Source of the DNA: Candidatus Hydrogenedentota bacterium
GTDB lineage: Bacteria; Hydrogenedentota; Hydrogenedentia; Hydrogenedentales; SLHB01
Direction of reading: 5' to 3'
DNA: 55,281 nt
Assembly: GCA_019695095.1 (NCBI GenBank)
Contig: JAIBAQ010000018.1
Coordinates: 1-55,281 of the forward strand
Part shown: piece by piece, positions 34,052-45,471 of the stretch
Layout of the letters: each line of letters begins with the position of its first letter
Position numbering within the stretch: the stretch's first letter is position 1
Position numbers and translations under genes: made by a program
The notes under the pieces: generated by a model
Database searches by the model: none
Seen by the model: the letters and a program-made list of their open reading frames with translations, nothing else
Told to the model about the DNA's origin: nothing

Positions 34052-34408
34052 GCGGGGTCGAATTGCACACGCGGGGCGTTTGAGGATAGGCTTAAGGAGG
34101 TGCTGAGCGGTCAATTGGCGCGCTGATCGCGATCGGAGTAGCGACCGCTCGTTCGTATCTGGAAAGTATGTTGCGTAAGTTGCGGTTTTCGGACAGGTTA
34201 AGCAATTCTACAGGCTGCGGTTCGCGGCAAGTGAACCATTCCCGACGGGCGTACGTTTGGGAATATGAGACGTGCAGCTTTTGTTTCCGATTTGTGCCGA
34301 TGTCAGGTCTCCTTTGGGCCGCCCACGCATTACGCGGCCGACATCCTTCGGTTGTGCCTGCCCGGTTATCGTTGCCCAGAATTTGTCGGGCATGGAGCTA
34401 GCCGCTAC
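34052..34408. other. gene-free leader before the redox operon
   Basis: It contains GAGCGGTC (34105) and its inverse GACCGCTC (34143) 30 bases apart and the palindrome GATCGCGATC (34125). The frame of the next gene is open back to 34265, but the extra residues look random. The operon promoter is likely here; no clear consensus is seen. Confidence 0.35.
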
Positions 34409-35881
34409 ATGATGTCCTTGAGGATAAACCTCGCTACAGTGGGCAGCAATCCACGCACCAGCCGCGCCGTAATCGGCGCAACGACCGCATTCTGTTCGAT
34501 TGTCTCCCTGGTGACCATTGTTGTCTGGCTTTCGAGCAACCCGACTCGCGCATTGGAGGCGCAGATCCCGGGCAAAGATGGGGCGCCGGCGCCAGGTACC
34601 GTCAAGGCTGCGAAGATCAATCTGGCGGGGGTGTTTGAGACGTTCGACGGCCAGCCTTCGCAACTGGGCGGGGCGTGGACCAACTTTCGCGGTCCGGATT
34701 CAAGCAATATCGTTCAAGACGCTCCTAAACTGGCGGAGACATGGGGCGCCGAAGGACCCAAGGTGGTTTGGAGCACTCCGGTGGGCGACGGCTATGCGGC
34801 CCCGGTCGTGCTGGATGGGCGCGTGTTCTTGATGGACTATGACGTCGAAAAGCGGATGGACGCGATTCGGTGCTTTTCGTTGGACGACGGACGGGAGATT
34901 TGGCGGCGTTCGTACGGAATCAATATTAAGCGCAATCACGGCATGTCGCGAACAATTCCAGCCGTGACCAAAGACTATCTCGTTGTTATGGGGCCGAAAT
35001 GTCAGGTTGTCTGTTTGGACACGGCGACGGGCGATTTTCGGTGGGGGATCGATCTTCAGCAGGATTACGGGACCACCGAGCCGTTGTGGTATACGGGGCA
35101 GTGTCCGATTATCGAAGACAACAAGGTGATCCTGGCTCCGTGCGGGAAGGACGTATTGATGATGGCCGTGGATTGTGCCACGGGCGAGGTGGTGTGGAAG
35201 ACGCCGAATCCGCACGGATGGAACATGTCGCATTCGTCAATCGTGCCGATGACGTTGCTGGGTGAGAAGATGTACGTGTACGGCGCGTTAGGCGGCATGG
35301 CTGGAGTATCGGGTGCGCCAGACAAGGCAGGCAAGCTGCTTTGGGAGATTCCGTGGGACGCGAAGGTCGTTGCCCCGTCCCCCGTGAAGGTGGGAGAAGA
35401 CGAGATCTTCGCGACGGCAGGATACGGACGCGGAAGCCGGTTGCTGAAATTGGCGAAGACCGGCGACACGATGAGCGTGAACGTGGTCTACGACAAGCCG
35501 CCAGACCAAGTGCTCTCGTGCGAGCAGCAGACCCCCATCTTTCTCAACGGACTTCTGTACGGCATCATGCCGAAAGACGCGGGTGCGTTGAAGGGGCAGT
35601 TTGTATGCTACAAGCCGGACGGCACGCTGGTCTGGTCGAGCGGGCAGGACAATCGCTTCGGGTTAGGCCCGTTTATGGTTGCCGACAATAAGTTCTTCAT
35701 TTTGGGAGACGACGGCGAACTGACAATGGCCGACGCAACGAAGCAGGAGTATGTGCAACTGGCGCAGGCTCCAGTGCTGAAGGGACACGACGCATGGGGC
35801 CCGCTTGCATTGGCGGGATCCCGGTTGTTGTTGCGTGATATGAACACATTGGCCTGCGTCGAGTTGGGTGCAGCCTCGTAA
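34409..35881 (+). CDS. exported PQQ-like beta-propeller protein 1
   Basis: A 490-residue protein with an N-terminal hydrophobic segment (FCSIVSLVTIVVWLSSN) as signal or anchor and an eight-bladed-type propeller. Signature pieces are WTNFRGPDSSNIV, KVVWSTPVGDGYAAPVVLDGRVFLMD, VVCLDTATGDFRWG, AVDCATGEVVWKTP and CYKPDGTLVWSSG. These PQQ-like proteins of the PVC/Hydrogenedentes type usually have no PQQ; I see no quinoprotein Cys-Cys ring or Ca site. First gene of the eight-gene redox operon; the next start is 18 bases after its stop. Confidence 0.85.
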   Translation: MMSLRINLATVGSNPRTSRAVIGATTAFCSIVSLVTIVVWLSSNPTRALEAQIPGKDGAPAPGTVKAAKINLAGVFETFDGQPSQLGGAWTNFRGPDSSNIVQDAPKLAETWGAEGPKVVWSTPVGDGYAAPVVLDGRVFLMDYDVEKRMDAIRCFSLDDGREIWRRSYGINIKRNHGMSRTIPAVTKDYLVVMGPKCQVVCLDTATGDFRWGIDLQQDYGTTEPLWYTGQCPIIEDNKVILAPCGKDVLMMAVDCATGEVVWKTPNPHGWNMSHSSIVPMTLLGEKMYVYGALGGMAGVSGAPDKAGKLLWEIPWDAKVVAPSPVKVGEDEIFATAGYGRGSRLLKLAKTGDTMSVNVVYDKPPDQVLSCEQQTPIFLNGLLYGIMPKDAGALKGQFVCYKPDGTLVWSSGQDNRFGLGPFMVADNKFFILGDDGELTMADATKQEYVQLAQAPVLKGHDAWGPLALAGSRLLLRDMNTLACVELGAAS

Positions 35882-35899
35882 GAGAAGACTGAGCGCGAG

Positions 35900-36913
35900 A
35901 TGAAAGAACCGGTTCGACAACTGAAACACACGTGGATAGCGGCGGTCGCCATACCGGCGATTGGGGTGGCGTACTTTGTGCTGCTCGGAACGAGTGATTT
36001 TCCGGAGCCCGGCGCGAACACGGTGTACGACATCCAGGAGTTCGAAGACCTCGACAAAATCGAGACCAACTACGACGAGAAGACACCGATCGTTCCTAAT
36101 GTGGAAAATCCGCGCGCGCTAGCGGTTGCGCAGGACAAGTTGTACGTCGGGGCGCAAGACGCAGTGCTTGTGTTTGATGGAAATGATGCCGAGATTGCCC
36201 GCTACGCACTTCCGGGAACGCCGAATTGCATTGCGGTGGCTCCGGACGGCGTTGTATACGCCGGCATCCGCAACAAGGTGCATGTATTGGATGCGAGTGG
36301 CGCTGCGAAGGCGGAGTGGGCGAAAGACTTTGCCGATCGGAGTTATATCACGTCGATAGCGGTTCACGGCGAGGACGTGTACGTCGCCGACGCTGGCAAG
36401 CGAGTGGTTTACCGGTTCAATCGCGAAGGTGTCGTTCAAGCGCGAATCGGAGAGAAGGATCCTGCACGGGACATTCCCGGGCTCGAAGTGCCGAGTCCGT
36501 ATCTTGACCTGGCAATCAATCCAGACGGTGACGTGTGGGTGGTGAATCCAGGCAAGCTCGGCCTGGAGCAGTATCGAAAGGACGGCAGCCTGGTAACGTC
36601 GTGGTACCGGCCTTCATTGAAACTGGAGGGGTTTCCGGGCTGCTGCAATCCGACGCATATTGCCTTCGACGGCAAGGGAGAGTTGTACACCTGCGAGAAG
36701 GGTTTGGTTCGCGTGAAATCGTTCGAGGTCACGTCAGGCGCGTTTGAAGGGCTGGTTGCGGGTTCCAAGTTGTTTCCACAGGAACAATCGCTCCGGGACC
36801 TCGTTGTCGATACGAAGAATCGTCTGCTTGTGTTGGATGGCCAACGGAAGGCGATTCGGGTGTTTGCACTCAAGGAGACTGCACATGTTCCCGCAACACA
36901 TCAGCCGACATGA
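35900..36913 (+). CDS. membrane-anchored NHL/six-bladed beta-propeller protein
   Basis: A 337-residue protein: an uncleaved N-terminal helix (WIAAVAIPAIGVAYFVLLG, 12-30), then NHL-like repeats each with a (V/I)AVxxxxVYVAD-type strand: RALAVAQDKLYVGAQD, CIAVAPDGVVYAGIRN, SIAVHGEDVYVADAGKRVVYRF, DLAINPDGDVWVVNPG, HIAFDGKGELYTCEKGLVRV, DLVVDTKNRLLVLDGQR. It has a CC pair in GFPGCCNPTH. It probably offers a docking surface on the periplasmic side. Its last 29 bases overlap the start of the next small gene. Confidence 0.82.
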   Translation: MKEPVRQLKHTWIAAVAIPAIGVAYFVLLGTSDFPEPGANTVYDIQEFEDLDKIETNYDEKTPIVPNVENPRALAVAQDKLYVGAQDAVLVFDGNDAEIARYALPGTPNCIAVAPDGVVYAGIRNKVHVLDASGAAKAEWAKDFADRSYITSIAVHGEDVYVADAGKRVVYRFNREGVVQARIGEKDPARDIPGLEVPSPYLDLAINPDGDVWVVNPGKLGLEQYRKDGSLVTSWYRPSLKLEGFPGCCNPTHIAFDGKGELYTCEKGLVRVKSFEVTSGAFEGLVAGSKLFPQEQSLRDLVVDTKNRLLVLDGQRKAIRVFALKETAHVPATHQPT

Positions 36914-37088
36914 TTTTCTGCAGGCCCTCGGAAGAGGGGGAATGCTGGCGGGTATTCTGGGCGTGGCGATAGCCGCGCTTCACGGCAAGAAGACCGTGAG
37001 CGAATGCATCAGCGAGAACCATTGCGCTTCGTGCTGGGCATATGACGGGTGCGCGCTGCCTGAAAAGAAGGAGACGACGAATGAGTGA
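36885..37088 (+). CDS. small Cys4 protein with a Tat-like leader
   Basis: A 67-residue protein starting at an ATG with AAGGAG 8 bases upstream. It has ISRHDFLQALGRGGMLAGILGVAIAAL, a Tat-like motif with RH in place of RR, then C41-x5-C47-x2-C50-x5-C56 in a charged tail. The four Cys could hold a zinc or an Fe-S cluster. I know no family. It overlaps the genes on both sides (29 and 8 bp), so it is translated with them and is likely a subunit or chaperone of the complex. Confidence 0.65.
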   Translation: MFPQHISRHDFLQALGRGGMLAGILGVAIAALHGKKTVSECISENHCASCWAYDGCALPEKKETTNE

Positions 37089-37701
37089 AGGACACGGAAT
37101 CGATCGGCGCGACTTCATGCGAGGCGCCGCAGCCGCTGCATTCGTCGGTGGAGCCTACGCGGCCGTTGGCGACAAGGGCGAGGAAATGGTCTGGCAGTTA
37201 GACCCGAACAAGTGTACGCAGTGCGGCCGCTGTTCCACGCACTGCGTGCTGAATCCCTCTGCCGTGAAGTGCATGAATCAGTTCAACATTTGCGGATATT
37301 GCGACCTTTGCTTTGGATATCTGCAGCCGGGGTCGAGAGGCCGCGACACGGGGGCGGAGAACGAGCTGTGCCCGACCGCGGCCATCAAGCGGACCTACAT
37401 CGAAGACCCGTACTACGAATACGTAATTGAAGAAGAGAAGTGCATTGGATGCGCGAAGTGCGTGAAGGCGTGTCTGGTCTTTGGCAATGCCTCGTTCTAC
37501 CTGCAAATCCGCCAGGACATCTGCATCAACTGCAATGAGTGTTCGATAGCAAAGGCCTGTCCGTCCGATTCGTTCAAGCGCGTGCCGAAGTTACAGCCGT
37601 ACATCTATCTGACGGGCGACGTAAGCACGACAAAGTCGCAGCCGTCGTCCGACCCCAATCCACCGCAAACTACACTGGGTCCGCGTAGTGAAAACAGTTA
37701 G
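37081..37701 (+). CDS. Tat-exported polyferredoxin (about three 4Fe-4S sites)
   Basis: A 206-residue protein with the Tat motif DRRDFMRGAAAAAFVGGAYAA, then cysteine groups: CTQCGRCSTHC, CMNQFNICGYCDLCFG with ELCPTAAI, CIGCAKCVKAC and CINCNECSIAKACPSDSF. Each resembles CxxCxxCxxxC(P) cluster binding. It would shuttle electrons at the outer face of the membrane and fits the NapH-like membrane protein encoded next (14-bp overlap), as NapG pairs with NapH in other bacteria. The start at ATG 37081 follows AAGGAG. Confidence 0.85.
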   Translation: MSEGHGIDRRDFMRGAAAAAFVGGAYAAVGDKGEEMVWQLDPNKCTQCGRCSTHCVLNPSAVKCMNQFNICGYCDLCFGYLQPGSRGRDTGAENELCPTAAIKRTYIEDPYYEYVIEEEKCIGCAKCVKACLVFGNASFYLQIRQDICINCNECSIAKACPSDSFKRVPKLQPYIYLTGDVSTTKSQPSSDPNPPQTTLGPRSENS

Positions 37702-38962
37702 GTCATTATTGGTCGTAGGACTGTTTCTTCTGCCCGCGATGCTGAGCGTCGCGGCAGAGATGCGCTTTCCGCCGCCGGACTTTCAGACGGACTACAAGAT
37801 CCCCGATCTGAACTCGCCGGCTCCGGTGAGCAGCAACGGGACCCGGGACGCGATCATATTATTCATCGCGTTGTCGGTGACAACGTGGATGGTGTTCAAA
37901 GCGCGGTCACGGCGGGGCCTGTTCATTATCAGTATCTTCTCGCTGGCCTATTTCGGTTTTTATCGCACGGGGTGTATCTGCCCCGTGGGGTCCACGCAAA
38001 ACGTGATGGCTGCCGTGTTTTTGCCCGACGTGGGTGTATCGGTTGCGGTGCTTTCGTTCTTCGTGATGCCGCTGCTGTTCTCGTTATTCTTTGGCCGGGT
38101 GTTTTGCGCGTCGGTGTGTCCGCTGGGAGCAATTCAAGAGTTGGTGGCGATAGCACCGATACGTATTTCACCTGCGCTGGACCGCACGCTGGGCTTGGGT
38201 CGGTACGTCTACTTGGGTCTCGCTGTGCTGGGCGTTGCCACCGGTTCGGGGTTCTTCATCTGCCGTTGGGATCCGTTTGTCGGGATCTACCGAATGGGGC
38301 ATAGCTTTGGGATGCTCCTCGCGGGTGGCGCGATTCTGACGTTGGGGATTTTTGTGGCTCGGCCGTATTGCCGGTTCTTGTGTCCCTACGGGATCATGCT
38401 GGGATGGATGTCGCGCTTTTCCAAGTGGCACCTCGATATTCCGCCATCGCCGTGTGTGAAATGCAGGTTGTGCGAGAATTCGTGTCCTTACAATGCGATC
38501 AACATGCCGATCCCATCGCATCTTGTGGGCGATCCGGAAGCCGGGAAGCGGAGAATCCGCAGACTGGTGTATGTTTCGCCGCTGATCATTGCGGTTGGCG
38601 CGACGCTGGGATACCTTTCCTACGAGCCTCTTTCGCGGATGCATCCAAAGGTGGCGCTGAGCGAGCGTATTGCCGCCGAGAACATTGGAAAGCTGACGAC
38701 GGATACGCTGGAAACACGAACGTTTCGCGCGGGCAAGCAGACCGTCGATGAATTGAACGCACAAGCGGTACAGATTCGCGAGTACTTTAAGACCGGCGGC
38801 GCGTGGTTTGGCGGGTTTCTCGCGCTGATTATCTGTCTGAAGTTGATCGGTCTTTCCACCGCGCCGAAGCGCGACATCTATACGCCCAACAAAGAGACCT
38901 GTTTCAGTTGCGGGCGCTGTTACCCGTACTGTCCAGTTGAACCCTTACCGAAACGAAGTTGA
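37688..38962 (+). CDS. NapH/CcoG-like membrane 4Fe-4S electron-transfer protein
   Basis: A 424-residue integral membrane protein (GTG start). An N-terminal signal-like helix and about six TM helices carry the NapH-type CxxxCP pairs (GCICPVGS; FCASVCPLGA; YCRFLCPYG) and a 4Fe-4S pair CVKCRLCENSCPYN. A second TM domain follows, then CFSCGRCYPYCPVEP at the C-terminus. This arrangement passes electrons from a quinol or cytoplasmic donor through the membrane. It lies between the periplasmic ferredoxin and the second propeller. Confidence 0.87.
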   Translation: MKTVRSLLVVGLFLLPAMLSVAAEMRFPPPDFQTDYKIPDLNSPAPVSSNGTRDAIILFIALSVTTWMVFKARSRRGLFIISIFSLAYFGFYRTGCICPVGSTQNVMAAVFLPDVGVSVAVLSFFVMPLLFSLFFGRVFCASVCPLGAIQELVAIAPIRISPALDRTLGLGRYVYLGLAVLGVATGSGFFICRWDPFVGIYRMGHSFGMLLAGGAILTLGIFVARPYCRFLCPYGIMLGWMSRFSKWHLDIPPSPCVKCRLCENSCPYNAINMPIPSHLVGDPEAGKRRIRRLVYVSPLIIAVGATLGYLSYEPLSRMHPKVALSERIAAENIGKLTTDTLETRTFRAGKQTVDELNAQAVQIREYFKTGGAWFGGFLALIICLKLIGLSTAPKRDIYTPNKETCFSCGRCYPYCPVEPLPKRS

Positions 38963-38965
38963 GCC

Positions 38966-40747
38966 ATGCTGGAAAAGAAAGAATTCGAGACCAACGATTT
39001 TTTGTGGCGGTTGTCAAGTGCGGTAGCCGTAGTATCGGGGTTGTTTTCTCTGATCGTATTTCTACTGCTCATTTTCAACTACGTGCAGATTCGAAACATT
39101 GACCCGATCGACAATCTGTTGATAACGCAGATGCGCCAGGAATACGCGTCGCTTCCCGAGAAAGACGATGCGTTGGCGCAGCGCATCCGCGATCTCGACT
39201 TGTTGAATCGCAAAGCGTTCTTCACGAGCCAGCATCATCTGCGTACCGGGGCCGTTTTGCTATTCATCGGTGTTTCAATATTCATGATCTCCTTCAAGGG
39301 AGCGTTTCGCTGGAAGCGCGAGCTGCCCAAGCTGGACGAAACGCCGACTGCGGACAAGGAATTTCTCGCGTTTGCACAGTCACGGCAATTGATAACGTGG
39401 GCCGGGGTAGGGATCTTGGCGTTAGGCATGGCTTCCGCGCTGCTGACGGAAAGCCTCGTGATGAAGAACGCGAACGCTAGCGTTGCGCCAGAGGGAGGCG
39501 ATGCCGCGAAAGCGGGCGATGGAAAAGAACCTATACAAGTCGCGAAAGCGGAGATCGCGCTTCCTACGTGGGATTCGATGGAAAAGAACTGGCCGAGTTT
39601 CCGGGGACCAGGCTCGTTGGCGACAGCGCATTTCACGACGGCGCCGGTGGATTGGGACATAGCGACGGGGAGCGGGGTGCGTTGGAAAGTGGAGATACCG
39701 CTGCCTGGCGCAAATTCGCCGGTGATCTGGGAAAACAAGTTGTTTGTATCGGGTGCGGACAAGGACAAGCGGGAGATCTACTGCTTCGATATCAACGAGG
39801 GAAAGGTTCTGTGGTCGAAGACGGTTGAGGATCTGCCGGGCGGATCGCAAGCGCCGCCGAAAGTGAGCGAAGACACGGGTTACGCCGCGCCGAGCATGGT
39901 CGCTCATGGCGGACGTGTGTTCGCAATCTTCGCCGAAGGGGACTTGGTCGCGTACGACCTTGATGGGAACCGTTTATGGGGAATCAACGTCGGCGTGCCG
40001 CAGAACCACTATGGACATTCGTCGTCGTTGTTGGCGTACGACAAGTTCTTGTACGTGCAGCTCGATCAGAAGGTCGATCCGAAGCTGATGGCGCTTGATG
40101 TGGCCACCGGGAAGCAGTTGTGGATGGCGAAGCGCTCAACGATTTCGTGGGCCTCGCCGATTCTTGCACAGACGGATTTTGGCCCGCAACTTATACTGAA
40201 TTCCGAGGAGACGGTGGACGCGTATGACCCGATTACGGGCACACAGTTGTGGAGTCAGGTATGTCTGAGCGGAGAAGTCGCGCCGTCTCCGTGTTACAAG
40301 AACGGGATTGTCTTCGCGGCGAACGAATACGCGGTCGCTACTGCGATCCAACTGGAGAAGCCAGGCGACGCGATAGAACCGAAGGTGCTCTGGGAGTATG
40401 ACGAGTACTTGCCGGAAGTTGCGAGCCCCGTGGGTGATGGAGAGCGCTTTTACTTCGGCACGAGCGGAGGGACGCTGGTCTGTCTCAACGCAAAGACCGG
40501 AGAGAAACTCTGGTCAGAAGATATGTCGGACGGATTCTATTCCTCGCCGGTGTTGGTGGGCGACCGCATCTACGTAGCGGATACCGGGGGGAAGATGTAC
40601 ATCGTCAAGGCGAGTTCCACGTTTGAATTGATCGCTACGCGCGATATGGGCGAACAGGTATTTGCGACTCCCGCGTTTATGGACGGGCGCATGTACGTGC
40701 GTACACAGAAACACTTGTATTGTATAGAGCAGAAGGCCAATGCATGA
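38966..40747 (+). CDS. membrane-anchored PQQ-like beta-propeller protein 2
   Basis: A 593-residue protein with three predicted TM helices (VAVVSGLFSLIVFLLLIFNY; GAVLLFIGVSIFMISF; LITWAGVGILALGMASALL) before a PQQ-like propeller: WPSFRGPGSLATAHF, YCFDINEGKVLWSK, AYDLDGNRLWGI, ALDVATGKQLWMAKR, AYDPITGTQLWSQV, CLNAKTGEKLWSE. Between TM1 and TM2 is a charged loop of 70 residues. The gene begins 3 bases after the NapH-like gene and overlaps the Nuo fusion by 8 bp, which ties the propeller to the electron-transfer genes. Confidence 0.85.
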   Translation: MLEKKEFETNDFLWRLSSAVAVVSGLFSLIVFLLLIFNYVQIRNIDPIDNLLITQMRQEYASLPEKDDALAQRIRDLDLLNRKAFFTSQHHLRTGAVLLFIGVSIFMISFKGAFRWKRELPKLDETPTADKEFLAFAQSRQLITWAGVGILALGMASALLTESLVMKNANASVAPEGGDAAKAGDGKEPIQVAKAEIALPTWDSMEKNWPSFRGPGSLATAHFTTAPVDWDIATGSGVRWKVEIPLPGANSPVIWENKLFVSGADKDKREIYCFDINEGKVLWSKTVEDLPGGSQAPPKVSEDTGYAAPSMVAHGGRVFAIFAEGDLVAYDLDGNRLWGINVGVPQNHYGHSSSLLAYDKFLYVQLDQKVDPKLMALDVATGKQLWMAKRSTISWASPILAQTDFGPQLILNSEETVDAYDPITGTQLWSQVCLSGEVAPSPCYKNGIVFAANEYAVATAIQLEKPGDAIEPKVLWEYDEYLPEVASPVGDGERFYFGTSGGTLVCLNAKTGEKLWSEDMSDGFYSSPVLVGDRIYVADTGGKMYIVKASSTFELIATRDMGEQVFATPAFMDGRMYVRTQKHLYCIEQKANA

Positions 40748-43226
40748 GACAGCCACGATAGCGGCGGACATCGAACTCGCCGAGATTGACCGGATCGTAG
40801 AGGAGAACGGACGCGGACCGGAAGCTGTGATTCCGATTCTTCAGGCGATTCAGTCGAAGTATCGCTACTTGCCGACGCCCGCGCTGATGCGCGTATGCGA
40901 ACTGACGGAGATTACACCGGCCAGTATCGAAGGCGTCGCGACGTTCTACTCGCAATTCCGCCGAGACCCGGTCGGCAAGCACGTTGTCAGCCTGTGCGAC
41001 GGAACCGCGTGTCACGTCAAGGGCGCGGAAGACGTGCACGAAGCGATGAATCTTGAGCTGGGCATGGAGAAGGGGAAGGACACCGACCCGGACGGAAGAT
41101 ACACAATTCGCAAGGTCGCGTGCCTGGGATGCTGCTCGCTTGCGCCCGCGATGCAGATCGACGGGGTAACGTATGCCCATGTGAGTTCGGAGACGATTCC
41201 CAGTGTCCTGCTCGATTTCGAGAAGAGGCAGGCGGAAGAGTCGCGCCAGAACGGCGAAAAGAAGCGCGAGGTTAAAGAGACCGGAGCGGAGATCCGGATC
41301 GGTTTGGACTCCTGCTGCGTGGCGAGCGGAACCGATCGCATCGAGTTGGCCATTCAGCGCGCGCTGGCAGAAATCGAATCGGACGTACCGATTAAGCACG
41401 TGAGCTGTGTGCATATGTGCCATTCGGTGCCTGTTATCGAAGTAATCGAGCCGAACAAGAAGCCGACACTGTACACGAAGGTTAAAGAAGAAGATGTGTC
41501 CGCGATTGTCGCGCGGCACTTCAAGCCGCGCAATCCCTTCCGTTGGGTGCAATCATCATTACTGCGATGGACAGAGCACCTGTACGGCGGCGTGGACGAC
41601 GGTGAAATACTCGAACGTCACGAAGGTGAAATTCGGGAAGACGTGGTCTCCACTTTCTTGGGTGGACAGTATCACATTGCGACGGAACACCGAGGAGATC
41701 TAAATCCTGGCGATCTGGGTGAGTACTTGCGCCGGGGCGGGTTTATGGCGGTGGAGAAGTGTCTGTTCGGAAAAGCGAACGGACGTGCTTTGATGACGTT
41801 CCATCGCGGGAACGGTCATGGCGAGCCTCCATCCGGAACTCCGTGGACCCAGCAGCAGATCATCGATGAGATTACGGCAAGTGGTTTGCGCGGTCGCGGC
41901 GGAGCAGGTTTCCCCACGGGCAAAAAGCTTCAGTTTGTGCATGACGCTCCGGGCGACAAGAAGTACATCATCTGCAACGGGGACGAAGGCGATCCTGGCG
42001 CGTTCATGGACCGGATGATTTTGGAGTCGTACTCCTACCGAGTGCTTGAAGGGATGATCATTGCGTCGCTTGCCGTGGGCGCAGATGAAGGGTATCTGTA
42101 CATTCGCGCCGAGTATCCACTGGCGACGAAACGCATGCGCAGTTCCATTCTCGAATGCGAGGCAGCGGGGCTGTTGGGAGACAACATCCTGGGAAGCGGG
42201 AAGTCACTCCGGCTGCATGTGAAGGAAGGCGCCGGCGCGTTCGTCTGCGGAGAAGAGACGGCGCTGATCGCGTCGCTGGAAGGCAAGCGGGGAATGCCGA
42301 CGATACGGCCGCCGTATCCGGCGCAGTGCGGGCTGCACGGGTGTCCCACGCTAATCAACAACACCGAAACGCTTTCGATGATCCCGTGGATTGTTCGCAA
42401 TGGAGCGTCGAAGTTTGCCGCGTTGGGCACCGAACGCAGCAAGGGGACCAAAGTCTTCTCGCTGGCGGGCAAGATCCGGCATGGCGGACTAATCGAAGTG
42501 CCAATGGGGATCACCATCAATGAGATCGTGAACGGCATTGGCGGTGGAATTGCCAACGGACGGAAGTTTAAGGCAATCCTCGTGGGCGGGCCTTCGGGCG
42601 GTTGCATCCCCGCATCGATGGGCGATACGCCCGTAGACTACGAGGCCCTGTCGCAAGCGGGAGCTATGATGGGGTCCGGAGGCATGGTCGTCTTGGACGA
42701 CTCGGACTGTATCGTCGAAATGTGCCGTTACTTCCTGTCGTTCACGCAACATGAGTCGTGCGGGAAGTGTTCGCCGTGCCGCATTGGAACGATGCGACTG
42801 AAAGAGATGCTCACGCGCCTGACCATGGGAAAGGGACAGGCCAGCGATTTGGACTTGTTGGAGCAGTTGAGTCGCGTGGTGAAGGACCAGAGCCTGTGCG
42901 GTCTCGGCAAGACGGCTCCAAATCCGGTGCTTACCGCATTGAAGTATTTCAAGGAAGAGTTCGAGGCGCACGTGAAGGGGTACTGCCCCGCGGGCAAGTG
43001 CAAAGCCCTGATTGACTACTGGGTCGAGGACAACTGCATTGGGTGCACGAAGTGTGCGCAGGTGTGTCCGGTCGACTGCATCGATACAGCGCCGTTCAAA
43101 ATGCACTTCATTCAATTGGATACGTGTACGCGATGCGACGCGTGCCTGGTTGCGTGCCCGGTGGACGCGATCAAGGCGGGTTCGCGCACGAAAGAGCAAC
43201 GGGAGAAGGCTCTGTGCCCACAATAG
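40740..43226 (+). CDS. NuoE-NuoF-ferredoxin fusion (NAD(H)-dependent diaphorase subunit)
   Basis: An 828-residue cytosolic protein with fused domains: NuoE-type 2Fe-2S thioredoxin fold (Cys86, Cys91, Cys128, Cys132), a second thioredoxin-like 2Fe-2S domain (Cys192/193, Cys223, Cys227), a NuoF FMN/NADH domain (GRGGAGFPTGKK, 385-396; CNGDEGDPGAFMDR), the NuoF 4Fe-4S site (ESCGKCSPCRIGT, about 671-683) and a C-terminal 2x4Fe-4S ferredoxin (CIGCTKCAQVCP; CTRCDACLVACP). This is the layout of HydB/HymB-type subunits of electron-bifurcating complexes with NuoE fused in front. No hydrogenase gene is nearby. It should exchange electrons between NAD(H) and the Fe-S proteins of the operon. Confidence 0.9.
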   Translation: MHETATIAADIELAEIDRIVEENGRGPEAVIPILQAIQSKYRYLPTPALMRVCELTEITPASIEGVATFYSQFRRDPVGKHVVSLCDGTACHVKGAEDVHEAMNLELGMEKGKDTDPDGRYTIRKVACLGCCSLAPAMQIDGVTYAHVSSETIPSVLLDFEKRQAEESRQNGEKKREVKETGAEIRIGLDSCCVASGTDRIELAIQRALAEIESDVPIKHVSCVHMCHSVPVIEVIEPNKKPTLYTKVKEEDVSAIVARHFKPRNPFRWVQSSLLRWTEHLYGGVDDGEILERHEGEIREDVVSTFLGGQYHIATEHRGDLNPGDLGEYLRRGGFMAVEKCLFGKANGRALMTFHRGNGHGEPPSGTPWTQQQIIDEITASGLRGRGGAGFPTGKKLQFVHDAPGDKKYIICNGDEGDPGAFMDRMILESYSYRVLEGMIIASLAVGADEGYLYIRAEYPLATKRMRSSILECEAAGLLGDNILGSGKSLRLHVKEGAGAFVCGEETALIASLEGKRGMPTIRPPYPAQCGLHGCPTLINNTETLSMIPWIVRNGASKFAALGTERSKGTKVFSLAGKIRHGGLIEVPMGITINEIVNGIGGGIANGRKFKAILVGGPSGGCIPASMGDTPVDYEALSQAGAMMGSGGMVVLDDSDCIVEMCRYFLSFTQHESCGKCSPCRIGTMRLKEMLTRLTMGKGQASDLDLLEQLSRVVKDQSLCGLGKTAPNPVLTALKYFKEEFEAHVKGYCPAGKCKALIDYWVEDNCIGCTKCAQVCPVDCIDTAPFKMHFIQLDTCTRCDACLVACPVDAIKAGSRTKEQREKALCPQ

Positions 43227-44716
43227 TCATCAATAACCGCAGCATTGAGGTAGCCCCCGGCACCACCATCCTTCAGGCGGCGCGCTCGCTGGAAATCGAT
43301 ATCCCCACGCTGTGTTATTGGGAAGGCGTGCGCGCGATGAACTCGTGCATGTTGTGCGTGGTGCGGAACACGAAGACCGGGCAGTTGCTGCCTTCCTGTT
43401 CGTCGTTGGTTCAGGACGGCATGACGGTCGAGACCGACACGGGAGACGTTTGCTCTTCGCGCAAGGAAGTGCTGGAACTCATCATCAGTGAACACATCGG
43501 CGACTGTGAGGCTCCTTGCACGCACACGTGCCCCGCTTCGATGAACATTCCGGTGATGATGCGGCAAATCTACGAAGGCGATTTCGATGCCGCGGCATAC
43601 ACGGTCACCAACGGACTCGTGTTTCCGGGCACGCTCGGACACGTGTGCCCGGCCCCGTGCGAAAACCCGTGCAGGCGCAAATCGTACGACCAGACCATGG
43701 AAATACGTTTCCTTCACAGGAATGTTGCGGAGAAGGCGCGTAAAGAGAATCCCGAGTTGTTGGAGTGTCCGCCGGATACAGGGCGGCGGATTGCAATCGT
43801 CGGTGGTGGCATGGCGGGGATGGCGGCGGCGTGGGTGCTCCGTAAAAGGGGCCACGCCGTGGTGCTCTTCGAGAAGGAGGCTGTGGCGGGCGGCAAGTTG
43901 CGCAAGCTCACGGAAGAAGAGTTGCCGAAAGAAGTGCTCGACGCCGAGATTGAGAATGTGCGGCGCCTGGGTGTGGAGTTCCGCTACGGGCAGGAAGTGA
44001 ATGGCGAGTTGGCCGACATTCAGGCGGAATTCGACGCGGTAATACTCGCGTGTAACGGCGTTGGCAAGCCGGGCGGGAAGATATTCGAGGCGAAGGAGCA
44101 CAAGCTGAATGTACGCGCGGTTGGCAATGGAAAGACCGCGGCGGTTTGGGTGGACAAGTATCTGAACAGTATCGAGGGCCCCGCCGAACCGGAGTTGTTC
44201 GAGAGCAAGATCGGAAAGATGGAGAAGTTCGAGCTCGAGAATTTGCGGGTGCACAACGAAAACAAAGAATCCATGCCGGTTGCCACTATCGACGGACCGC
44301 GTGTCGATTTGCGGAAGGAAGCGGGACGTTGCCTGCACTGCGATTGCCGGAAGCGCGTGTCGTGCGGACTACGGAAATGGTCCTCTTTCTACGGCGCAGA
44401 GAAGCGCAAGTACAACACCACCGAGGAGCGCGATTTCCGAATCATCGGCAAAGGGAATGTGATGTTCGAGCCGGGCAAGTGCATCCGCTGCGGTCTATGC
44501 GTGGCGATTGCCGAAAAGCACGGCGAGGATATCGGTCTCGCGTTCATCGGGCGCGGATTCGACCTGGAGATTCGCGTACCGTTCGATCACAGCTTCGACG
44601 AAGCGCTGGTGAAATCTGCCGAAGAATGCGTAGCCGCATGTCCGACGGCTGCTATTTCATTCCGCAACAAGGAAGACATCGTAGGCTGTCACACCACGAC
44701 GTGGATCGAGCTTTGA
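43214..44716 (+). CDS. 2Fe-2S ferredoxin / GltD-like FAD protein with shortened flavin module
   Basis: A 500-residue protein starting at GTG 43214 (GAGAAGG 5 bases before). Its N-terminal plant-type/NuoG-type 2Fe-2S site is Cys34, Cys45, Cys48 and Cys62. A GltD-type Fe-S N-domain follows (GDCEAPCTHTCPA; GHVCPAPCENPCRR), then one FAD Rossmann motif (IAIVGGGMAGMAAAWVLRKRG, about 193-213). The usual second NAD(P)H Rossmann domain is not visible. Instead, the remainder runs to GRCLHCDCRKRVSCG and a ferredoxin-like CIRCGLCVAI...ECVAACPTAAI. Together with the Nuo fusion it may form a flavin-based electron-transfer pair. It overlaps the preceding gene by 13 bp. Confidence 0.85.
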   Translation: MPTIVINNRSIEVAPGTTILQAARSLEIDIPTLCYWEGVRAMNSCMLCVVRNTKTGQLLPSCSSLVQDGMTVETDTGDVCSSRKEVLELIISEHIGDCEAPCTHTCPASMNIPVMMRQIYEGDFDAAAYTVTNGLVFPGTLGHVCPAPCENPCRRKSYDQTMEIRFLHRNVAEKARKENPELLECPPDTGRRIAIVGGGMAGMAAAWVLRKRGHAVVLFEKEAVAGGKLRKLTEEELPKEVLDAEIENVRRLGVEFRYGQEVNGELADIQAEFDAVILACNGVGKPGGKIFEAKEHKLNVRAVGNGKTAAVWVDKYLNSIEGPAEPELFESKIGKMEKFELENLRVHNENKESMPVATIDGPRVDLRKEAGRCLHCDCRKRVSCGLRKWSSFYGAEKRKYNTTEERDFRIIGKGNVMFEPGKCIRCGLCVAIAEKHGEDIGLAFIGRGFDLEIRVPFDHSFDEALVKSAEECVAACPTAAISFRNKEDIVGCHTTTWIEL

Positions 44717-44781: not shown

Positions 44782-45471
44782 TCAGACGAGGCCGAGCGTA
44801 AACGCGAGCGTGAAGTAGATTCCCACAATCAAGAAGATGCTTCCGGTGGCATAGCGTGCCCAGCGCTCGGCGCGACCGACTTGAGCGAAGATGGCAGCCA
44901 CCTTGTGGGCCATTGTCGCGATGAGAATGCTGAATAGCATCACCGGCAGTGCAACACCGACGGCATAGGCTGCGGGCAGAATCAAAGCGGACTCATTCGC
45001 TATCGCGAGCGGCAAGAGACTGAAGAAGAAGAGGGCGGCTGTGGTCGGGCAGAAGGACATGGCAAAGACAATGCCAAGCAAGGCCGCAATCCAGAATCCC
45101 CCCGCGTTGGAATGCCGGTGCGCCCACGCTTTCAGCCTGCCTGAGCCGAATTGGACGCTGATTAGTTCCAGCAGAAAGAGAGCGCAGAGAATGAGAATAG
45201 GGCCCAACAGTCGAAACATATACTTCTGAAGCCAGTGCGACACGAGCGGAGCCGAAAGAAGACTGTTCACGAGGCACATCGCGAGAATCACGAAGGCCGC
45301 CGCTTGCCCGACGATATAGCAGAGGGACGAGAACAAAACGTGGCGCAGGCTGTTCATTCTGCGCGCGAGAAACGAGATGGCGGCAACGTTGGTGGCGAGA
45401 AGGCAGGGGCTGATCGAGGTGAGAAAGCCGAACCAGAACGCGGCGCCAATTGCGAACGCGAATTCCCTCAT
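44782..45471 (-). CDS. ArsG-like/CcdA-DsbD-family membrane transporter
   Basis: A 229-residue, six-helix protein of the CcdA/DsbD transmembrane superfamily: FWFGFLTSISPCLLATNVAAISFL carries the first SPC motif, and GIVFAMSFCPTTAALFF the second (FCP). This is the form annotated as aromatic aminobenzylarsenical efflux permease, ArsG family. Redox carriage of reducing power is the ancestral role; in the ars context it exports trivalent aromatic arsenicals. It overlaps the ArsF-like gene by ATGA. Confidence 0.78.
   Translation of the reverse strand: MREFAFAIGAAFWFGFLTSISPCLLATNVAAISFLARRMNSLRHVLFSSLCYIVGQAAAFVILAMCLVNSLLSAPLVSHWLQKYMFRLLGPILILCALFLLELISVQFGSGRLKAWAHRHSNAGGFWIAALLGIVFAMSFCPTTAALFFFSLLPLAIANESALILPAAYAVGVALPVMLFSILIATMAHKVAAIFAQVGRAERWARYATGSIFLIVGIYFTLAFTLGLV

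Follow-up and report, generated by a model that had tools for sequence, protein, structure and literature searches.

A conserved four-cysteine mini-protein encoded beside a NapG-like polyferredoxin, probably a small metal-binding subunit of an electron-transfer complex

Cys4 is a 67-residue protein with four invariant cysteines that is encoded directly upstream of a Tat-type polyferredoxin, or fused to it, and it is probably a small metal-binding subunit of an electron-transfer complex. The gene was analysed in a 55,281-nucleotide stretch of DNA from a Candidatus Hydrogenedentota bacterium (the window, meaning the whole of that stretch), where the surrounding system is clearly NapGH-like and the operon as a whole seems to encode a so far undescribed NAD(H)-linked complex for electron transfer across the membrane. 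The protein represents an unclassified family that has no model in Pfam or NCBIfam and whose conservation spans phyla, and its fusions mark a complete eight-gene electron-transfer operon; no description of the operon or of the protein was found in open-access papers. The operon is present in cultured species, namely Labilibaculum filiforme and its relatives and Pontiella sulfatireligans, and its function is therefore testable.

The Cys4 gene and its conservation

The Cys4 gene occupies positions 36885..37088 of the forward strand, with the TGA stop counted in, an assignment that rests on translation, orthologs and purifying selection, and its product is MFPQHISRHDFLQALGRGGMLAGILGVAIAALHGKKTVSECISENHCASCWAYDGCALPEKKETTNE. 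Cysteines 41, 47, 50 and 56 form a C-x5-C-x2-C-x5-C pattern (37005..37052, forward strand) that is a candidate metal site. The gene overlaps the NHL reading frame, whose stop ends at 36913, by 29 nt, and the ferredoxin reading frame, whose ATG is at 37081, by 8 nt. A Shine-Dalgarno-like AAGGAG (36871..36877, forward strand) lies inside the NHL gene about 7 nt ahead of the Cys4 ATG, and a second AAGGAG, within the Cys4 gene and about 7 nt ahead of the ferredoxin start, serves the ferredoxin. AGG- or AGGAG-like sites are found at the equivalent place in most orthologs, and many members of the window's clade share the overlaps, although four genomes have a gap of 58-183 nt downstream of the NHL gene. 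The coordinates, length, cysteine spacing, overlaps with both neighbours and ribosome site given by the initial annotation all agree with the sequence and its translation.

Orthologs of Cys4 are present in 16 other Hydrogenedentota genomes (60 searched), with 42-70% identity and E-values from 3e-28 to 3e-12. Synonymous changes outnumber non-synonymous ones among these orthologs, the pN/pS ratio being 0.11-0.37 in the closer pairs and 0.25-0.63 against the window sequence, and residues M1, R8, F11, R17, A31, G34, E40, C41, C47, C50, C56, L58, P59 and E60 are invariant in their alignment. A broader alignment of 62 members was assembled by using the ferredoxin as bait in named genomes and then inspecting the DNA upstream of it; it covers Hydrogenedentota, Kiritimatiellota/Verrucomicrobiota, Lentisphaerota, Planctomycetota/Phycisphaerae and Bacteroidales, including the cultured Labilibaculum and Pontiella. 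Across these phyla R8 and all four cysteines are invariant, and F11 and R17 are conserved in at least 90% of members. The initial annotation had staked its claim on the cysteine spacing at orthologous loci, and this spacing is kept. Its description of an unrecognised, easily missed but real protein is likewise borne out by the orthologs, the low pN/pS, the invariant cysteines and the lack of a matching Pfam, NCBIfam or PDB family; the reading frame is a real gene, far beyond chance. No real paralog was found in the window's own genome, a 31% match there (L002) being an unrelated longer protein.

Judged by sequence matches, Cys4 is widespread and spans phyla. Of the genomes sampled, a Cys4 profile matched 24 of 294 in the phylum of a Planctomycetota locus, 33 of 289 in the phylum of Pontiella and a single one of 296 in Bacteroidota, the last set doubling as specificity control. 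The 5-2-5 spacing is the commonest, and variants fall mainly in the first gap (3, 4, 6, 7 or 11 residues): one Kiritimatiellota clade has a 3-2-7 spacing, while some fused forms read C-x11-C-x2-C-x5-C and still have four cysteines. One Kiritimatiellales locus (L068) carries a degenerate version. A locus labelled 'Nitrospiraceae' (L071) was rejected as an extension of the range, since it appears to be a contig identical to one in a Hydrogenedentota genome (G010/G072, same coordinates).

Operon context

The operon lies entirely on the forward strand and opens with a PQQ-type propeller protein (34265..35881; Pfam and tblastn of loci) and an NHL propeller protein (35900..36913; Pfam NHL), which adjoins Cys4 upstream and has a conserved GCCNP motif. 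Cys4 is followed by a Tat-type NapG-like polyferredoxin with an RRDFMRG leader (37081..37701), which was identified by its Fer4 domains and is the Cys4 fusion partner in some genomes. Next come a NapH-like membrane iron-sulfur protein with Fer4_5 and Fer4 domains (37688..38962; Pfam, NCBIfam and loci), a second, membrane-anchored PQQ-type propeller protein (38966..40747; Pfam and loci), a NuoE-NuoF-like NAD(H)/FMN module with a C-terminal Fer4 pair (40740..43226) and a NuoG N-terminal/GltD-like Fe-S flavoprotein (43043..44716), the last two assigned from Pfam, NCBIfam and loci. The listed start of the final gene falls inside the preceding one, and its true start is probably later than 43043.

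This eight-gene order (34265-44716 in the window), in which Cys4 is optional, recurs in Hydrogenedentota, the PVC group, Bacteroidales and one Sumerlaeota genome. By tblastn of 80 ferredoxin loci, the NapH-like protein was found in 77, each of the two PQQ propellers in 76, the NHL protein in 73, the NuoEF-like module in 61 and the NuoG/GltD-like protein in 54, with contig ends cutting some loci. The NHL protein, itself probably periplasmic, has a conserved double-cysteine motif, F-x-GCCNP (about 36635-36660 in the window), that is present in 73 of the 80 loci, the same number as the NHL matches. Convergent with the operon, a DsbD/CcdA-like membrane protein (recognised by eye) is encoded at 44782-45471 on the reverse strand, and three other Hydrogenedentota loci have it in the same position.

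One of the 80 loci cannot be judged for Cys4. Among the remaining 79 testable named loci, 52 carry Cys4 as an independent gene directly upstream of the ferredoxin, 12 carry it fused to the ferredoxin (64 of 79 together), and 15 lack it; the fixed operon position that had been proposed is thus nearly fixed. Within Hydrogenedentota the ferredoxin is present in 41 of 68 genomes, and the A1 profile matched in 18 genomes, all of which also carry the ferredoxin, and in none of the 27 that lack it. Among profile hits in other phyla, only L177 and L196 have no adjoining ferredoxin despite a contig that continues; in both, Cys4 is still downstream of the NHL gene and the ferredoxin is elsewhere in the same genome, which hints that the NHL protein may be a partner of Cys4 as well. 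At L173 the Cys4 gene comes first, and the NHL gene lies between it and the ferredoxin. Several Hydrogenedentota loci with a closely similar ferredoxin (L074, L076, L080, L151-L153, L155 and L158-L160) have no Cys4 gene between the NHL and ferredoxin genes, implying that those families either lost the subunit or never acquired it.

Fusions to the ferredoxin are the strongest functional clue for Cys4. In eight fused loci (L111, L113, L118, L119, L128, L129, L130 and L085) one RR-x-F leader comes first, the Cys4 unit next and, immediately after it, the ferredoxin, which has no leader of its own, so that one leader is common to both parts. One locus goes further, with Cys4 unit, ferredoxin and NapH-like protein joined in a single 649-residue reading frame (L113:7791-9737). 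The fused loci come from metagenome assemblies; nevertheless, the fused form occurs in many separate genomes. The initial annotation was right about the gene and its position and had overlooked both these fusions and the conserved operon.

Leader and predicted topology

The N-terminus of the window protein has a Tat-like motif without its second arginine, R8-H-D-F11 (36906..36917, forward strand; defined on the 62-member alignment), followed by R17 and a Gly/Ala-rich hydrophobic stretch (residues 18-34; 36933..36986, forward strand) that is a predicted membrane anchor by AlphaFold2 and hydropathy. The only confident element of the AlphaFold2 model is a helix of residues 8-32, with a block of pLDDT >90 at residues 11-30. 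The hydrophobic part reaches a hydropathy of 1.81 over 16 residues, a mild value of the kind typical of Tat signals (PMC10924467). An RR pair occupies positions 8-9 in 42 of the 62 members (about two thirds); the window's clade has R-H, R-Q, R-L or R-E there (RR in none of 17 A1 sequences), and some Kiritimatiellales have R-K, R-Q or R-H. The leader first described as Tat-like with RH in place of RR can therefore be read as the form that a true twin-arginine leader takes in this particular clade.

The N-terminus would act as a signal anchor that places the Cys4 part outside. In the window's clade the motif is reduced to a single arginine while the partner ferredoxin retains the pair (RRDF), and, with the second arginine missing, the Cys4 protein is probably carried out by the RR-bearing ferredoxin. 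Such hitchhiker export by the Tat pathway is established for hydrogenase subunits and for PaoABC (PMC10924467, PMC4273604).

The cysteine site

Scans of the window protein alone and of the 62 members against Pfam and NCBIfam returned isolated weak hits only, to zinc-ribbon and FeoB-associated Cys-rich models among others. A PDB profile search of the family found no family and one chance match, to a ribosomal protein; the statement that no family is known for the protein thus holds for Pfam, NCBIfam and the PDB. Membership of the NapG/MauM family was judged by Fer4 C-x2-C-x2-C-x3-C cluster motifs together with a profile match, and since Fer4, NapG and MauM models matched none of the 62 members in Pfam or NCBIfam, Cys4 is not of that family by sequence. 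By gene context it does fit as a subunit of a NapG/NapH system, with the NapH-like protein in 77 of 80 loci.

The closest motif found for the Cys4 site is that of the NuoG N5 [4Fe-4S] cluster, H-x3-C-x2-C-x5-C-x-LQ. Alignment of the two by hhalign gave 32% probability over 15 columns, whereas segments taken from the neighbouring ferredoxin scored 1-10%, and PF10588 matched one of 62 members (E 0.006). With a first ligand of Cys-x5, so short an alignment and a single matching member, membership in the N5 site family was rejected; the likeness is a motif analogy and not homology, and it may reflect cysteine spacing only. The suggestion that the spacing resembles small high-potential iron-sulfur sites did not stand, because HiPIPs have a C-x2-C-x16-C-x13-C spacing, the dominant one here is 5-2-5, and neither Pfam nor the PDB gave a match. 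AlphaFold2 yields no confident fold for the cysteine part (pLDDT about 55-64), and its model of one fusion (L111) is poor (mean pLDDT 51). The site most probably holds a metal centre, for which a [4Fe-4S] cluster is favoured and zinc or disulfides are possible.

Proposed role and alternatives

There is an even chance that Cys4 is a dedicated, membrane-anchored, periplasm-facing small subunit of the NapGH-like complex, with a putative metal centre that relays electrons. The R-x-x-F motif and weakly hydrophobic helix would form an uncleaved Tat-type signal anchor, placing the Cys4 domain at the periplasmic face beside the NapG-like polyferredoxin, with which it would be exported in the window's clade. 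As an electron relay, the metal centre, favoured to be [4Fe-4S], could then connect the polyferredoxin with the NapH-like membrane protein or the quinone pool, while the cytosolic side of the complex would be linked to NAD(H) through the NuoEF/NuoG-like modules. The Cys4 unit would serve as an extra relay or anchor. A role as a subunit is supported by the fusions, where the unit sits exactly between the shared leader and the ferredoxin, by the invariant cysteines and the link to the ferredoxin in 64 of 79 loci, and by the confinement of A1 matches to ferredoxin-bearing Hydrogenedentota. It also draws on the true RR-x-F leader of most members and the RRDF of the partner, on the precedent of hitchhiker export in other complexes, and on a C-x2-C-x5-C-x-L core that is closer to NuoG N5 than to the ferredoxin controls. 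Counting against it are the first cysteine gap of 3 to 11 residues, unusual for a tightly built cluster, and the lack of a confident AlphaFold2 fold for the cysteine part or a good fusion model; moreover, the absence of Cys4 from 15 otherwise similar operons means that the electron path can run without it. A broader proposal, to which somewhat less than even weight is given, is that proteins of the Cys4 kind, with one helix, a periplasm-facing orientation and a C-x5-C-x2-C-x5-C site, make up a new Fe-S family in PVC, Hydrogenedentota and Bacteroidales genomes, as a dedicated subunit of an undescribed NAD(H)-linked complex for transmembrane electron transfer composed of the NuoEF/NuoG-like, NapH-like and NapG-like proteins and the NHL and PQQ propellers.

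Cys4 could instead be a structural tether that binds zinc or forms two disulfides, transfers no electrons and does no more than attach the ferredoxin to the membrane or the NHL/PQQ propellers. The very small size, the unpredicted fold, the variable first spacing and the weak zinc-ribbon and FeoB-associated hits would suit this role, as would the two genomes that keep Cys4 by the NHL gene with the ferredoxin elsewhere and a single-arginine leader that could be a Sec signal anchor. It is nonetheless unlikely, given that the Tat-type RR of most members suggests that the unit is exported already folded and loaded with its cofactor and that the ferredoxin of non-fused operons has its own leader and would not obviously need a mere tether. 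Rather improbable is an assembly factor on the model of NqrM, a one-helix membrane protein, with cysteines that would deliver iron or an Fe-S cluster to the partner without staying in the complex. Tat substrates such as the ferredoxin are normally loaded with clusters in the cytoplasm ahead of export, and a covalent 1:1 union with the ferredoxin in 12 named loci suits a permanent domain better, even though an exchangeable accessory could be missing from some operons, as Cys4 is, and its shape and setting resemble those of NqrM, which is small, membrane-bound and encoded beside the complex that it matures (PMC6209661, PMC12174285). That the short reading frame, overlapping both neighbours, is a chance product or a translational coupler between the NHL and ferredoxin genes with no consequential protein is refuted by a pN/pS well below 1, cysteines invariant across phyla and the ferredoxin fusions.

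Comparison with known systems

HiPIPs share with Cys4 four cysteines and a small periplasmic redox setting, and differ entirely in spacing and in the lack of a profile match. The NuoG N5 segment (PF10588) has the C-x2-C-x5-C-x-L core in common with Cys4; it differs in its first ligand (His-x3 versus Cys-x5) and in being cytosolic and part of a large subunit, and the Cys4 profile match does not amount to significant homology. TIGR02811 (formate dehydrogenase region TAT target) is likewise a very small Tat-leader protein encoded by redox genes, and it matched one of 62 members weakly (E 0.005), probably through the leader; to our knowledge, no Cys4 site is found there.

NqrM is cysteine-rich, and we know of no fusion of it to a periplasmic ferredoxin, such as Cys4 has; Cys4 also differs in having no NqrM/DUF539 match among the Pfam and NCBIfam matches of the 62 members. 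The two are alike in being small, membrane-associated (by prediction for Cys4) and encoded beside a partner complex, NqrM being involved in Na+-NQR maturation and linked to Fe-S insertion (PMC6209661, PMC12174285).

NapG and NapH likewise pair a Tat-type multi-[4Fe-4S] ferredoxin with a polytopic NapH-like Fe-S protein, and excerpts of the literature describe NapH-like systems as modular and as carrying electrons between membrane and periplasm (PMC8238504) and report natural NapH-NapG fusions (PMC5449189), which the 649-residue fusion described above resembles. The same excerpts mention no Cys4 mini-subunit for NapGH (PMC5449189, PMC8238504), and the window operon further differs from NapGH in adding NHL and PQQ propellers and NuoEF/NuoG-like modules.
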